Of a DNA stretch of 64,000 nt, positions 5,642 to 55,736 are shown piece after piece. Positions within the stretch are counted from its first letter, which is position 1; every line of letters begins with the position of its first letter. A model generated the notes under the pieces. That model ran no database searches, was not told the DNA's origin, and worked only from the letters and a program-made list of their open reading frames with translations. A program made the translations under genes and the position numbers. Origin of the DNA: Natronomonas pharaonis DSM 2160 (lineage in GTDB: Archaea; Halobacteriota; Halobacteria; Halobacteriales; Haloarculaceae); NCBI RefSeq assembly GCF_000026045.1, contig NC_007426.1, forward strand, positions 682,001 through 746,000. The letters run 5' to 3'.

Positions 5642-6301
5642 CTACCGTGAACGCGACAGCCGAGAGCGGAGCGACCGCGTTCGTGTCCCACACTCGTCGG
5701 CGTACTCGCAGGTCTGACACCGATTGTCATTTTTGAGCCGCGGCGGCGGTCCGTCGATGGATTCGGCGGTGTTGAGTGCCTTCCGGTAGGTCGCCTTCCG
5801 ACGGGTCGTCATCCGGACTTTCCGGATGTCACCGAACGCCGGATACTCGACGTACGCCGTCTCGACCGGCTGTTGTCGCTCCCACGAAAGCGCCTTCGCC
5901 GCTGCAGTCGCCCGGACGCTGTGGGGTTTCCAGACGCCGTTCTCCGGCGGCTTGCCGGTAGAGACGATGGCCGGAGCCGGCGGCGATTCGAGCACCTTGT
6001 GGGCGATGCCGTGGGCGTCCTTTCCGGACAGGAACACGCGTGTCGACGGCGGGTCCACGAGGTCGGGCCAGCGGTCGAGCCGCTGCCGTTGCCGCCGTAA
6101 CGCCTCCCGATACGCCGACGGCTCGGGGACCACCGGCTCCGCATCGAGCGACGACTCCGCGTTGAGCAGCGACGAGTACCGGAACGCGAGGTTCCGGGTT
6201 GCCGCGACATCGTCCGGAGGTGTCGCGTCGTCGTGCTTTCGCCGGTAGTAGAGCTTTCGGGGACAGAACGCTGCCGTCGCGAGGTCGGTGAAGGCTTCCA
6301 C
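5642..6301 (-). CDS. Solitary Cas4-like (PD-(D/E)XK superfamily) protein with 4Fe-4S cysteines
   Basis: The 219-residue protein starts with AFCPRKLYYRR (first Cys at residue 13) and ends with CQTCEYADEC, the one-plus-three cysteine arrangement that holds a 4Fe-4S cluster in Cas4/AddB nucleases. A central DAHGIAHKVLE and IVSTGKPPENGVWKP lie where RecB-type nuclease motifs occur, but a clear (D/E)xK is not seen, so activity is uncertain. The start is GTG. No CRISPR array or other cas gene is nearby, so I read it as a non-CRISPR Cas4 homologue, possibly in DNA repair. Confidence 0.75.
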   Translation of the reverse strand: MEAFTDLATAAFCPRKLYYRRKHDDATPPDDVAATRNLAFRYSSLLNAESSLDAEPVVPEPSAYREALRRQRQRLDRWPDLVDPPSTRVFLSGKDAHGIAHKVLESPPAPAIVSTGKPPENGVWKPHSVRATAAAKALSWERQQPVETAYVEYPAFGDIRKVRMTTRRKATYRKALNTAESIDGPPPRLKNDNRCQTCEYADECGTRTRSLRSRLSRSR

Positions 6302-50513: not shown

Positions 50514-53500
50514 TCACATGAAGCTTCCGAGCCCGGTCTGTTCCTGTCCGCTCTCGACCTCGTCCCACGAGATGTCCAGCGCTTCCAGAACCCGAGCGAT
50601 AGGGCCTTTCAACGTCTTATCGAGCATCTTCTCGTAGTCGACCTCGAAGGCATCGGGAATCTGGTCTTCATACTCGAAGCAGATGACTGCCTCGCCGCTT
50701 TCGGCCTCTCGCTTGAATTCGCCATAAAGCTGGTCCGTCGAGGGGTCCAGCCCTTCCTCGGACTCCATCTTCCGGAAGAATGACGGATGGACCTTCGCTA
50801 AATAGAGCCGCTTCGGCTTCGACCCGCTCGTGAAGTTCGTCCCGAGCAGCCGGTTTGCGTACTTTGCGCCCCGGACCTGTGCGGTGTCGGTCTCGTAGTT
50901 GTCGAGTTTCTTGCCGATACCCCCCGGGATGGCTAACTCCTCGTGGCTTATGTCGCCTTCCCGGACCCGCTCGATGACATCGTGGACGTAGCTCTTGATG
51001 TCTTCAGGGTCTTCGCCGGTCACAATCATCTCGAGGACTTCCCGCTGGACCTCCTTGGTAATCGGCGCGATGTCCGACCGCTGGTACTCGAAGCCGGTGA
51101 TGTCGAGGTCGTCGACCTCTTTGCCCTCCTTCCAGATGATGTGGCCGGCGTATCGCTTTTTCTTGCCGGCCTGGAAGAACCGCCGATAGAGCTTTTCGAA
51201 CTCTATTTGGAACCGGTGTTCTTCGGCGTTGAGTCGCTCTGCGAATCGGTCGTAGGCGTCGTTGATGTGCGACTCGATTTCGAACGACTGCTCGATGGCT
51301 TCGTCCTCAGAAACCTCGTTGCCGAGTTCCAGCATTACCGAGTCCGTGTCGCCGTAGATGACATCCTTATCGAGCTCTGCGGCTGCCTGCTCGGTGAACT
51401 CGATGACGTCCCGGCCGGTCGCGGTCACGGCAGCGCCCATCTCCTTGTCGTAGAGCCGGAAGCGGTCCCATCCCAAAACGCCGTAGAGGGATTGGCCGAC
51501 AAATTGGAATTTCCCCGCTCGGCCTGCAAGGAGTGTATGGTTGTCTTCGACGGTTACGCAGTACACGCCGTCATCAGCAGTTGTTCGCTCTGCGCTCCGG
51601 TCCATGCGGAGCGTGTTCGTGCCGTCTTCCGTGACGTAGATGCGATAGACGCCGCTTTCTTCGCTGTAGCTTGCGGGTACGCCGAGATGCGCACAGAGCC
51701 GCAACACGTCGTCCCGGAGCCGCTCGCTTGCGGTGTTATACTGCCACGAATTCGGCTGGCGGTCCCCGTCACCGCTGATGAGTGTCTGCATGAACCGCTC
51801 TTTCTGTCGGCGAGATGCTTCAAAAACGAGCTGCGGAATACGCTTGTCCTCACTTCCCCCTCCGCCAAGGGTACAGAACAGGTCACCGAGGAGCTTCGAG
51901 GTGACCTGATAGCTCCCGTTGTCGTTGTCGTAGTCGAACCCCATCCGGTCGAGGAGCGTGCCAATGGTCGCGTGTGTGTCTCCTCCATCGGCTACGACCG
52001 GCTCCTGTGCTATCTGAACCGTCGAACTCCCGTGGCGCTGTCCGTCGAACTCCTTTCGTTCCGATGTGTGGGCGTTGCCTTCGGTCACATACCACGCCAG
52101 CAACTCGAGGAAGTCATCCCCATCGTACACGCGAGGAATCCATTTCAGCCCGGACTCGCGGCGGATGTAGCTTTGCTCGCAGACGGATTCGATGTACTCA
52201 CGGTGCTGTTTGAACTCATCAGCGGTGAACACGTATCCGACGGTATCGATGTCGGCTTTCGGCACTCGCCGGGGCTTCCACCCTAACTCGGCGGTAAACG
52301 TCCGACCGTGGACCTCAGGCCGTACCCACACCTCGTACTCCTCGTCGATGAGTTCTGTCAGGTCTATTTGCGTAACGTCTTCACCGTCCGGACCAGCCCA
52401 GTCATGCGGCAGCTCGTAGGTTGTCGCCAGGTCGAGGGCACCGGCCTCGACGAACCGATATTCGTCGTCGGTGATGCCGTTCGTCCCGTTTTTTCGGACG
52501 AGCATTCGATGGTTCGGTGTCACGCGGAAGTCGATTTCCCCCGTCTGGATGTCTACGAGTTCTCCGCGGTAGTCCGGGTAGGCGTGCGTGTCGACCACGG
52601 GCTTGACCTCCATTTCCATCGTCTCTGGGTCTAGTGAGTAGACCTCATCGCCGATGTCGAGGGCACGGATATTCCGGACGCCGTCGGGTGTCAGGACCTC
52701 CGTGTCCGGCGTAAAGCAGTTCATAATGACCTTGACAGCTGACTGCTGTCGGTCATACGTCTCGTAGGCGTCGGTGCTTGGCTCGTGTTCGTTTCGGAGG
52801 CTCTTTTTTTCCTCCCGTTCTTCGAGCAACTCGTCGACCATCTCCCGGATTACCCCGTCCGGTTCCTTCCGGAAGTGCGTGCCATTGGGAGCGGCGTAGG
52901 TTTCGGCCCCGTAGTTGTCGGGGTCGACCTTCGTCTCGGGAGACGCGTTAATCGTCACCATGCACATGGGGTAGAGCGACTGGCCGACCCACTGGAGATG
53001 GCCGTTACGGCCCGCGAGTACGACGTGATTGTCCTCGGCGGTGATACAGTGGACGTCCCCGTCGTGGTCTTCAACCGTTGCGTTGGACTTTTTCATCGAC
53101 CCACGTGTGCCGACTGAGACGTACCACGTACCGTCTTGGTTCTCCGAGACAGTCGGCTTCTCGCCGCAGCGCACCGCAAGCCGAACAACGTCGTCCTTCA
53201 GCCGGTCGCTCTGTGTCCAGAACTCTCCGAGCCCGCTGTCGGTACGGCTGCCGTCGCCGTCGACGAGCGTCTCAAGGAGCGTTCGGAGGTGGGCGGCGTC
53301 GAGTTCGAACACCCACTCCGGGAGCCGCGTTTCGGTCGCGCCGTCACCGCAGTTTTTGACGAACCAATCGTACAGGACCCGATTTGAGACAGTAACCCGG
53401 GTTCCATCGGCGTCGTAGGGCAGTTCCATCCGTTCGAGGAGGCTCCGTATCGCGGAACGACCCTCCTCGTCCTGTCGACGGAGAACGATTCTTTTTGCCT

Positions 53501-55736
53501 CGTGGGCGAACCGTCCCGCAGTGACGAACCAGCCGACTAGCTCAAGCCAGTCGTCCATCCCGAACCCTGTCGGAATTTGGTTGTCCTCGCGCTCGTATTT
53601 GAGCAACACCTCGTCGGCGTGCTCGTCGATTACGTCCCGCCGCTCGCGGTACGTGTCAATGGGGATGCGATACGTGCCGGTCTTTTCTTCCGTTGCGGCC
53701 AGTTGGGAGGTGCCGTCCGCCCGGTCGAGAGCGGCTTCAACGCCCGCCGGCATCGCTGTGCGAAACGCGCTGCGGCCATCGTGGGCGCAAACGACGGCGT
53801 GTCCGTCGTCGACTGCTCCGGCGAGGTCGAACTCCTCCCGCGTTGCGCCTGCCATCGGCTCGTGGTTCGGAAACGCGAGCCGCTCGTACTCCGGTAGCTC
53901 TCGATACTCGGAGAGTGCATAGTCGTCGGGACCGGGGCTGTCCAAGTCCACCGTCTCTGAAAGCAGGAACCGATGGTTCTCGGTCACCTTGAAATCGTGC
54001 GTCCTCCCGGCGACGTGATGGAGTTCACCGTACTTGTTCCGGTAGGACTGCGTGTCGACGACCGGCTTTATCTCACATTCGAATGTCTCGGGGTTCAAGG
54101 TGTACACCGGGTCACCGACCGCTACCTCCTGAATGTTCTTGATCCCGTCCGGTGTCGCCACGTCCGTATCCCCGCTGAAGCATTTCAGGTCCAGCACCGA
54201 GACCATCTCTTTGACACCGGAAATCGGGTCAAAGACGGCCCCTCCCTCGTATTCTTCACCCTCTTGGTGCCCCTTCGACGGCAGCGCGAACTCGCCGTGA
54301 ATCTTGTGGAGGACATACATGTCGACGGCGTCGCCGGGCGTCGTTGCGTCTTCGAGCTTACAGCCGACGAAGGAGGCGACCTCCTCCCAGAACTCGACGA
54401 TATTCTGTTTGCGGTTTAGCTCGACACAGAGCTCGACGTCACGGAGGTTATACTCCAGCAGTCGCTCGGGGTCGTCCTCCCAGAGGTCGCCGATGTCGCC
54501 CGGATAGCGCTCCTTGCCGACGCCGAGTTCCTCTTCGCCGACGGCATCGAGCCGGTAGGAGTCGAGTTCGGAGAACTGCGTCCGCTGATAGGCATACAGC
54601 AGGTCGAAGACGACCCGTCCCTTGATGTTGGGGCCGCCCCAGCCGGAGTCCCAGACCTCGCGGACCCGCGAAAGCCGGTCGGAGTAGAGTCGGTCGTGGC
54701 GGCTTGCGATGCGGTCGATGCGGTCGATGAGGTAGGGGGCGTCGAAGTCATCGAAGTTCCAGCCGCTGAGAACGTCCGGGTCGGTATCCTCGATGTAATC
54801 GAGGTAGTCGACGAGCATCGTCGCCTCCTCGTCGAAGCGGCGGACATCGACATCGAGTGGACCGTCGCCGATGGGGTCGTATCCGCCGAGGGCTTCGGGC
54901 CCGCCGACGCCGTCGTCGGACTCCGAGAGCCAGATGACGTATTCGTCGCGGTAGGAGTCGTAGCTCGTCAGACAGACGATTTCCTCCTCGCCGTCTTCGG
55001 GGAACCCGTGTCGGTCGTCGACCTCGATGTCGAGGATGTGGAGGCGGCTTTCGGCGTCGACGGCCGTCGCTGTCAGCTCGCTGTGGTGGACTTTCAGGCT
55101 TCCGTCGTCGAGCTCGCGGTTCGGGGCACGGACACCGCTCGTGATGTCCTTGTCGATGAGCAGCCGGTTGGGAAAGAGGATATCTGCCTCGTAGTGCTCG
55201 AAGCGGTCCCGTAGCTGCCCGACATCGCGCGGCGTCTGGCCGAAGACCTTTACCAACTTCTCGCCGCGGATTGACTCGTAGACGACCAGTTCATTCGGGC
55301 CGTCACCATCGTCGGCTTCCGTTTCAACGCCAGTCAGCCGGTCGTGGTCCAGCCGCGAATCGACGATGTCGGCCTCAGTGAGGGGTGCTTCGGCGCTGTC
55401 AGCGATATCAAGCTCCGAAAGCGGCGTATAAAAGTACGGTTTAAATCCGTAGACACGGATGTGGAGTGGCTCGTCATCGCCGTCATTCGGCCGGCGGCCG
55501 AAAACGTGTAACACCGGATGCTCGTCGTCGCCGCCTCCCTCGACGGTGTAGTCGACCTGCGTGACCGCACACTCGATTTGTCCGTCCGCGTCGGGGAACT
55601 CGTAGTCGGCGACATCGACGACCGACGCGTCCCCGTCGTCGCTGCCGGCGACCGCCGCTGCCTCGGCGGCCGGCCGGCCGGCGTCGGCATCGTCTGACGC
55701 GCCCGTATCGAAGTCCCCGAGCGTACCCTGTTCCAT
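50514..55736 (-). CDS. polB: DNA polymerase B with two inteins
   Basis: The 1740-residue precursor has an extein of 930 residues, typical for archaeal PolB. The exonuclease domain has DIE at residues 236-238, GWNFDDFDAPYL at about 325-336 and YNLRDVEL at about 429. Polymerase motif A (DLK|SLYP) and motif B-like KVIMN|SLYG are each split by an intein, and motif C YGDTDS lies at 1461-1466. The extein ends in the C-terminal thumb region with LGSFM. The start follows a TATA-like box by about 28 nt, so the mRNA may be leaderless. Confidence 0.97.
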   Translation of the reverse strand: MEQGTLGDFDTGASDDADAGRPAAEAAAVAGSDDGDASVVDVADYEFPDADGQIECAVTQVDYTVEGGGDDEHPVLHVFGRRPNDGDDEPLHIRVYGFKPYFYTPLSELDIADSAEAPLTEADIVDSRLDHDRLTGVETEADDGDGPNELVVYESIRGEKLVKVFGQTPRDVGQLRDRFEHYEADILFPNRLLIDKDITSGVRAPNRELDDGSLKVHHSELTATAVDAESRLHILDIEVDDRHGFPEDGEEEIVCLTSYDSYRDEYVIWLSESDDGVGGPEALGGYDPIGDGPLDVDVRRFDEEATMLVDYLDYIEDTDPDVLSGWNFDDFDAPYLIDRIDRIASRHDRLYSDRLSRVREVWDSGWGGPNIKGRVVFDLLYAYQRTQFSELDSYRLDAVGEEELGVGKERYPGDIGDLWEDDPERLLEYNLRDVELCVELNRKQNIVEFWEEVASFVGCKLEDATTPGDAVDMYVLHKIHGEFALPSKGHQEGEEYEGGAVFDPISGVKEMVSVLDLKCFSGDTDVATPDGIKNIQEVAVGDPVYTLNPETFECEIKPVVDTQSYRNKYGELHHVAGRTHDFKVTENHRFLLSETVDLDSPGPDDYALSEYRELPEYERLAFPNHEPMAGATREEFDLAGAVDDGHAVVCAHDGRSAFRTAMPAGVEAALDRADGTSQLAATEEKTGTYRIPIDTYRERRDVIDEHADEVLLKYEREDNQIPTGFGMDDWLELVGWFVTAGRFAHEAKRIVLRRQDEEGRSAIRSLLERMELPYDADGTRVTVSNRVLYDWFVKNCGDGATETRLPEWVFELDAAHLRTLLETLVDGDGSRTDSGLGEFWTQSDRLKDDVVRLAVRCGEKPTVSENQDGTWYVSVGTRGSMKKSNATVEDHDGDVHCITAEDNHVVLAGRNGHLQWVGQSLYPMCMVTINASPETKVDPDNYGAETYAAPNGTHFRKEPDGVIREMVDELLEEREEKKSLRNEHEPSTDAYETYDRQQSAVKVIMNCFTPDTEVLTPDGVRNIRALDIGDEVYSLDPETMEMEVKPVVDTHAYPDYRGELVDIQTGEIDFRVTPNHRMLVRKNGTNGITDDEYRFVEAGALDLATTYELPHDWAGPDGEDVTQIDLTELIDEEYEVWVRPEVHGRTFTAELGWKPRRVPKADIDTVGYVFTADEFKQHREYIESVCEQSYIRRESGLKWIPRVYDGDDFLELLAWYVTEGNAHTSERKEFDGQRHGSSTVQIAQEPVVADGGDTHATIGTLLDRMGFDYDNDNGSYQVTSKLLGDLFCTLGGGGSEDKRIPQLVFEASRRQKERFMQTLISGDGDRQPNSWQYNTASERLRDDVLRLCAHLGVPASYSEESGVYRIYVTEDGTNTLRMDRSAERTTADDGVYCVTVEDNHTLLAGRAGKFQFVGQSLYGVLGWDRFRLYDKEMGAAVTATGRDVIEFTEQAAAELDKDVIYGDTDSVMLELGNEVSEDEAIEQSFEIESHINDAYDRFAERLNAEEHRFQIEFEKLYRRFFQAGKKKRYAGHIIWKEGKEVDDLDITGFEYQRSDIAPITKEVQREVLEMIVTGEDPEDIKSYVHDVIERVREGDISHEELAIPGGIGKKLDNYETDTAQVRGAKYANRLLGTNFTSGSKPKRLYLAKVHPSFFRKMESEEGLDPSTDQLYGEFKREAESGEAVICFEYEDQIPDAFEVDYEKMLDKTLKGPIARVLEALDISWDEVESGQEQTGLGSFM
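51492..52718 (-). other. PolB intein 2 (pol-b site)
   Basis: Residues 1007-1415 (409 aa) begin with Cys (CFTPDTEVLTPDGVRNI) and end FVGQ before Ser-Leu-Tyr. The splicing motifs are TPNHRMLV (block B), VYCVTVEDNHTLLAG (block F) and FQFVGQ (block G, with Gln as the last residue). The DOD endonuclease motifs LAWYVTEGN and LISGDGDR both keep their acidic residues. It interrupts KVIMN|SLYG. Confidence 0.93.
52980..54182 (-). other. PolB intein 1 (pol-a site), degenerate homing motif
   Basis: Residues 519-919 (401 aa) begin with Cys (CFSGDTDVATPDGIKNI) and end WVGQ before Ser-Leu-Tyr. Block B is TENHRFLL, block F is VHCITAEDNHVVLAG and block G is HLQWVGQ. The first LAGLIDADG-type motif reads VGWFVTAG, where the acidic residue expected before Gly is Ala740. 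The second motif LVDGDGSR is intact. It interrupts DLK|SLYP. Confidence 0.93.

Follow-up and report, generated by a model that had tools for sequence, protein, structure and literature searches.

Two inteins in the PolB of Natronomonas pharaonis appear to stem from separate same-site lineages that share an ancient ancestor

How does a single gene come to carry two similar inteins, each placed directly before the same Ser-Leu-Tyr tripeptide? The arrival of inteins at new sites is puzzling, as homing depends on homology in the flanks and ectopic jumps are considered very rare (PMC1635734, PMC4071816). The question is raised by the gene of the family B DNA polymerase (polB) in the 2.75-Mb haloarchaeal genome of Natronomonas pharaonis DSM 2160, within the stretch of 64,000 nucleotides analysed here (the window). 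An earlier note on this DNA had proposed that one of the inteins gave rise to the other by ectopic homing or gene conversion inside the gene. We found that both inteins it described are present, and that the interval it gave, 51492-54182, runs exactly from the end of intein B to the start of intein A. The layout of the gene is as follows.

50514..55736, minus strand: polB (family B DNA polymerase), interrupted by two in-frame inteins; 1740 codons starting at the listed ATG, the extein after splicing having 930 aa
52980..54182, minus strand: intein A, pol-a site (DLK/C...VGQ/SLYP), 401 aa; boundaries set by Cys1, the Gln-Ser junction and intein-free homologues
51492..52718, minus strand: intein B, pol-b site (VIMN/C...VGQ/SLYG), 409 aa
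52719..52979, minus strand: extein spacer between inteins A and B, 261 bp (87 aa)
53967..53987, minus strand: splicing block B of intein A, VTENHRF
53511..53555, minus strand: LAGLIDADG motif P1 of intein A, DDWLELVGWFVTAGR; Ala in place of the usual catalytic Glu
53517..53519, minus strand: GCG (Ala) codon within P1 of intein A; Glu in the other 101 aligned sequences
53244..53285, minus strand: LAGLIDADG motif P2 of intein A, RTLLETLVDGDGSR; Asp intact (53253-53255)
52980..53036, minus strand: C-terminal splicing region of intein A, EDNHVVLAGRNGHLQWVGQ
52503..52523, minus strand: splicing block B of intein B, VTPNHRM
52074..52118, minus strand: LAGLIDADG motif P1 of intein B, DDFLELLAWYVTEGN; Glu intact (52080-52082)
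51759..51800, minus strand: LAGLIDADG motif P2 of intein B, ERFMQTLISGDGDR; Asp intact (51768-51770)
51492..51548, minus strand: C-terminal splicing region of intein B, EDNHTLLAGRAGKFQFVGQ

The common motifs from which paralogy had been deduced are indeed found in both inteins: each starts with C-F-x-x-D-T, carries KPVVDT and TxNHR, and ends in LAGRxGxxQxVGQ followed by SLY. These motifs represent more than generic intein blocks, since A and B match over their full length (BLASTP, 32% identity, 183 bits, E=4e-58), including the endonuclease region, while polB-c and other haloarchaeal inteins, among them the MCM and RpoA'' inteins of this genome, yield at most 37 bits in pairwise phmmer comparisons. 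At the DNA level A and B share short matching stretches only, the longest being 74 bp at 73%. The tripeptide was also correctly read at both sites (DLK/SLYP at pol-a, VIMN/SLYG at pol-b). However, two catalytic motifs of PolB (DxxSLYP and KxxxNSxYG) contain S-L-Y, which occurs at both positions in nearly all intein-free haloarchaeal PolBs that we read; thus, it is neither an independent coincidence nor a trace left by an intein. The presence of S-L-Y in both motifs makes the pol-a and pol-b sites resemble each other, their DNA being identical at 14 of 24 positions, which ranks 4th among the 943 in-phase 24-mers of this extein.

To place the two inteins, we extracted PolB inteins from haloarchaeal genomes (30 a-site, 67 b-site, 26 c-site and 11 d-site) and added viral b-site inteins and free-standing intein-like genes to the tree set; the sample is thus haloarchaeal and viral, whereas Soucy et al. 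report pol-a and pol-b inteins from bacteria (Salinibacter, Halanaerobium) as well. Intein A is 54-71% identical to the other a-site inteins, which are found in other genera and families, compared with 29-42% to b-site inteins. In turn, intein B shows a median identity of 68%, and up to about 82%, with b-site inteins, and 29-35% with a-site ones. In the IQ-TREE phylogeny all a-site inteins, including A, form one 30-member clade (support 100/99), and B falls within the main b clade (100/98) beside the inteins of two Natronomonas relatives, its nearest relative (L059_b) being 82% identical. The B intein of a Natronomonas relative shares 81.7% identity with ours and the extein of that relative 82.2%, values close enough to be consistent with shared descent. 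The A inteins of genus relatives are 68-71% identical to A, and their exteins 77-82%.

By insertion at DLK/SLYP, monophyly with the a-site inteins, splicing residues and length, A corresponds to the polB-a allele of Halobacteria (~401 aa; Soucy et al., 2014, PMC4071816; InBase pol-a site), from whose members it differs by the Ala that replaces the P1 catalytic Glu. Its assignment stands without a two-acid endonuclease, because inteins with degenerate endonucleases count as members. Similarly, insertion at K-V-I-M-N/S-L-Y-G, grouping with b-site inteins and the two-acid endonuclease place B in the polB-b allele (~409 aa), with no notable difference from it. Both are therefore ordinary members of known alleles, and in this respect the finding is mostly an ordinary one.

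Beyond the host genomes, viral scans with A alone or B alone gave no relatives, but a scan with a mixed alignment did. The b-site inteins of this family occur also in viral PolBs (IMG/VR contigs L216 and L218; uncultured phage LR756508, L215), in the same site as B and at 32-40% identity; a-site inteins were seen in haloarchaeal hosts only. The inteins of viral PolBs L217, L219 and L220 (starting at 6001), which belong to this family too, are located one codon downstream of the pol-b site (N/S-x-Y-G), with Cys as the residue after the insertion (NS/C-Y-G), and the intein-free viral relatives L349, L350 and L351 read NS-LYG at this place. A plasmid search with A gave no match, and non-haloarchaeal members of the phylum yielded distant intein families only, e.g., those of MCM and NAD synthetase. 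Mycobacteriophage matches turned out to be distant inteins of other proteins; they were discarded as family members and served solely as outgroups. As for the other inteins of this genome, that of MCM (L185, G000:C1:2469000-2480000) seems, by eye, to have a helix-turn-helix-like stretch at the position of the homing endonuclease, and that of RNA polymerase A'' (L186, G000:C1:50000-61000) bears LAGLIDADG-like motifs and is remotely similar to A and B.

Did one intein then give rise to the other by copying between the two sites of this gene, or of a recent ancestor of it? The common motifs, the 32% identity and the similar site DNA speak for such copying, but the phylogeny does not. The tree had been named beforehand as the check, with grouping of each intein with same-site inteins of other genera as the outcome that would contradict copying, and this is what we observed. 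A tree in which A and B are constrained to form a clade is worse by 446 log-likelihood units (AU p=1.4e-10); hence, they are not each other's nearest relatives. Moreover, in the 27 genomes with both inteins, A-B pairs from the same genome are no closer in protein (34.4%) than pairs from different genomes (34.2%; permutation p=0.057), and of 47 sliding windows a single one favours the A-B pair of N. pharaonis, by about 2-3 percentage points. A small within-genome excess at the nucleotide (p=0.004) and synonymous (p=0.002) levels has no counterpart in protein, and we set it aside as the effect of shared codon usage. The protein excess that would indicate gene conversion within the genome is absent. 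Taken together, the same-site clades, the AU rejection and the lack of a protein excess lead us to reject recent duplication or gene conversion in this genome, a reading to which we give practically no credence. This agrees with Soucy et al. (2014, PMC4071816), who reported that haloarchaeal intein alleles cluster by site and found support for no more than one ectopic event. The proposed paralogy thus survives as a deep relation between two sister families and fails as a duplication in this lineage. The opposite extreme, two unrelated families with convergent motifs, could draw on the fact that the Hint blocks are common to all inteins and on the lack of supported links between alleles in that study, yet we regard it as quite improbable in view of the full-length match, endonuclease region included. 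Best a-to-b scores (185-250 bits in pairwise phmmer, compared with about 610-770 for the best same-site pairs) exceed those of any other sampled haloarchaeal family by about 150 bits or more, phage terminase inteins reaching 61-116 bits, and the a+b superclade is split from its nearest outgroups at 99/98 and 100/99. Judged from these sequences, polB-a and polB-b are each other's closest relatives among all the intein families sampled, a modest addition given that Soucy et al. had no supported allele links.

Such a relation implies an ancestor at one site and a descendant at the other, and we consider one ancient change of site, between SLYG and SLYP, in a host and time other than this genome, to be likely. 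Its direction was more likely from b to a; this is favoured by one tree, though not significantly. In the rooted tree with all viral rows, b-site inteins lie on both sides of the root and the a-site ones are nested among them: all a-site inteins and the viral b-site intein L218 constitute one clade (99/97), beside which three divergent b-site inteins from deep-branching haloarchaea (L114, L115 and L145) are placed with lower support (89/90). The three divergent b inteins also score 231-249 bits to A, compared with about 200 for ordinary b inteins. Monophyly of all host b inteins is rejected in the unrooted set (p=0.001), although this set includes long rows, viral and free-standing, and the result is due in part to free-standing genes that nest with the main b group. 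The distribution of b-site inteins, which extends to viruses, points the same way. On the other side, with rooting by long outgroups a placement of a outside all b is compatible with the AU test (p=0.087), and the directional signal weakens once the longest rows are omitted (p=0.36). On balance we lean slightly toward an ancient ectopic jump from pol-b to pol-a as the founding event of the polB-a family, possibly from a lineage near the viral b inteins or those of deep-branching haloarchaea (families f5 and f11). The latter families include divergent b-site inteins of 391-392 aa (L143:4091-5263, minus strand; L144:2484-3659; L145:7529-8701), whose similarity to a-site inteins is about the same as that to ordinary b-site ones (39-42%); in L143, PolB has inteins at all four known sites.

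With regard to function, both inteins retain Cys1, TxNHR in block B, the C-terminal Gln and Ser+1; normal splicing is thus expected, and A and B should both be able to excise themselves by means of these residues. The endonucleases differ. Loss of the P1 Glu is predicted to abolish cutting from what is established about LAGLIDADG enzymes. This first acid is Glu in 101 of the 102 aligned sequences and Ala in A only, so that none of the other a-site inteins shows the change; the second acid (Asp) is intact in A, and both acids are kept in B. Consequently, A is predicted to be unable to cut its own site and B to be able to do so, i.e., A would be homing-dead and B homing-competent. The replacement in A concerns a single codon in a single assembly, and a sequencing error is possible.

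Genomes bearing an a-site intein mostly carry a b-site intein as well (26 of 29, compared with about 114 of 391 overall; hypergeometric p=2e-12, uncorrected for shared ancestry), the b count being a threshold tally of 109 plus five b-bearing genomes added by hand. Both this co-occurrence and the predicted loss of endonuclease activity fit the movement of A by co-conversion as B homes, and A may move only by hitching on B. Turgeman-Grott and colleagues discuss the possibility of co-conversion (PMC10643990). They studied the Haloferax MCM-a and MCM-d inteins, which likewise share one essential replication gene and might interfere or home jointly, and found that the two interfere with rather than help each other (PMC10643990). 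In contrast to the polB pair, in which A is predicted to be endonuclease-dead, both MCM inteins home independently.

The account that we hold with high confidence is that A and B are standard polB-a and polB-b inteins, each of which would have arrived by its own same-site lineage, whether inherited vertically or acquired by homing between relatives, neither having been made from the other in this genome. Both would splice; B, with its two acids, would be able to home, and A, having lost one, would be unable to cut, so that any spread of it would occur by co-conversion with B, 261 bp away. The two families would share one ancestor apart from the other sampled haloarchaeal inteins, and a single ancient SLYG/SLYP switch, preceding the spread of the a family across haloarchaeal families, seems the simplest explanation. 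A bolder combination, in which one ectopic jump of a pol-b intein into SLYP founded polB-a and some members, A included, persist as endonuclease-dead passengers of the pol-b intein, strikes us as conceivable but doubtful.

Sites of similar DNA in one gene, sister families and viral and deep-branching b relatives make the pol-a/pol-b pair a good test case for intein site change. The b-site relatives of the latter two kinds could fix the direction of the switch, and a founding jump from b to a would, if true, be an unusually well-placed case of such change within one gene. The predicted endonuclease-dead A beside the intact B offers a natural system for testing co-conversion.

We also observed genes that resemble whole pol-b-type inteins without a host protein in about 16 of 391 haloarchaeal genomes (L176:4957-6231, L177:5115-6419, L180:5029-6294, L183:4946-6166, L184 and L320-L335). 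In these genes Cys1 is replaced by Gly and the last Gln usually by Val, mostly with a short GVSxVx tail at the end, and both LAGLIDADG acids are present in the five that were aligned. In L176 and L183 the gene lies immediately after that of a VirB4-like conjugation ATPase, and L183 also has a TrbL-like gene close by. The tree nests these genes with the pol-b inteins, and they are possibly homing endonucleases of conjugative elements that have escaped and are dead for splicing. Among host-borne inteins, the closest to them (44%) is a b-type one in a second, divergent PolB of one genome (L153; G228 contig C3, 42283-43452 of the contig).
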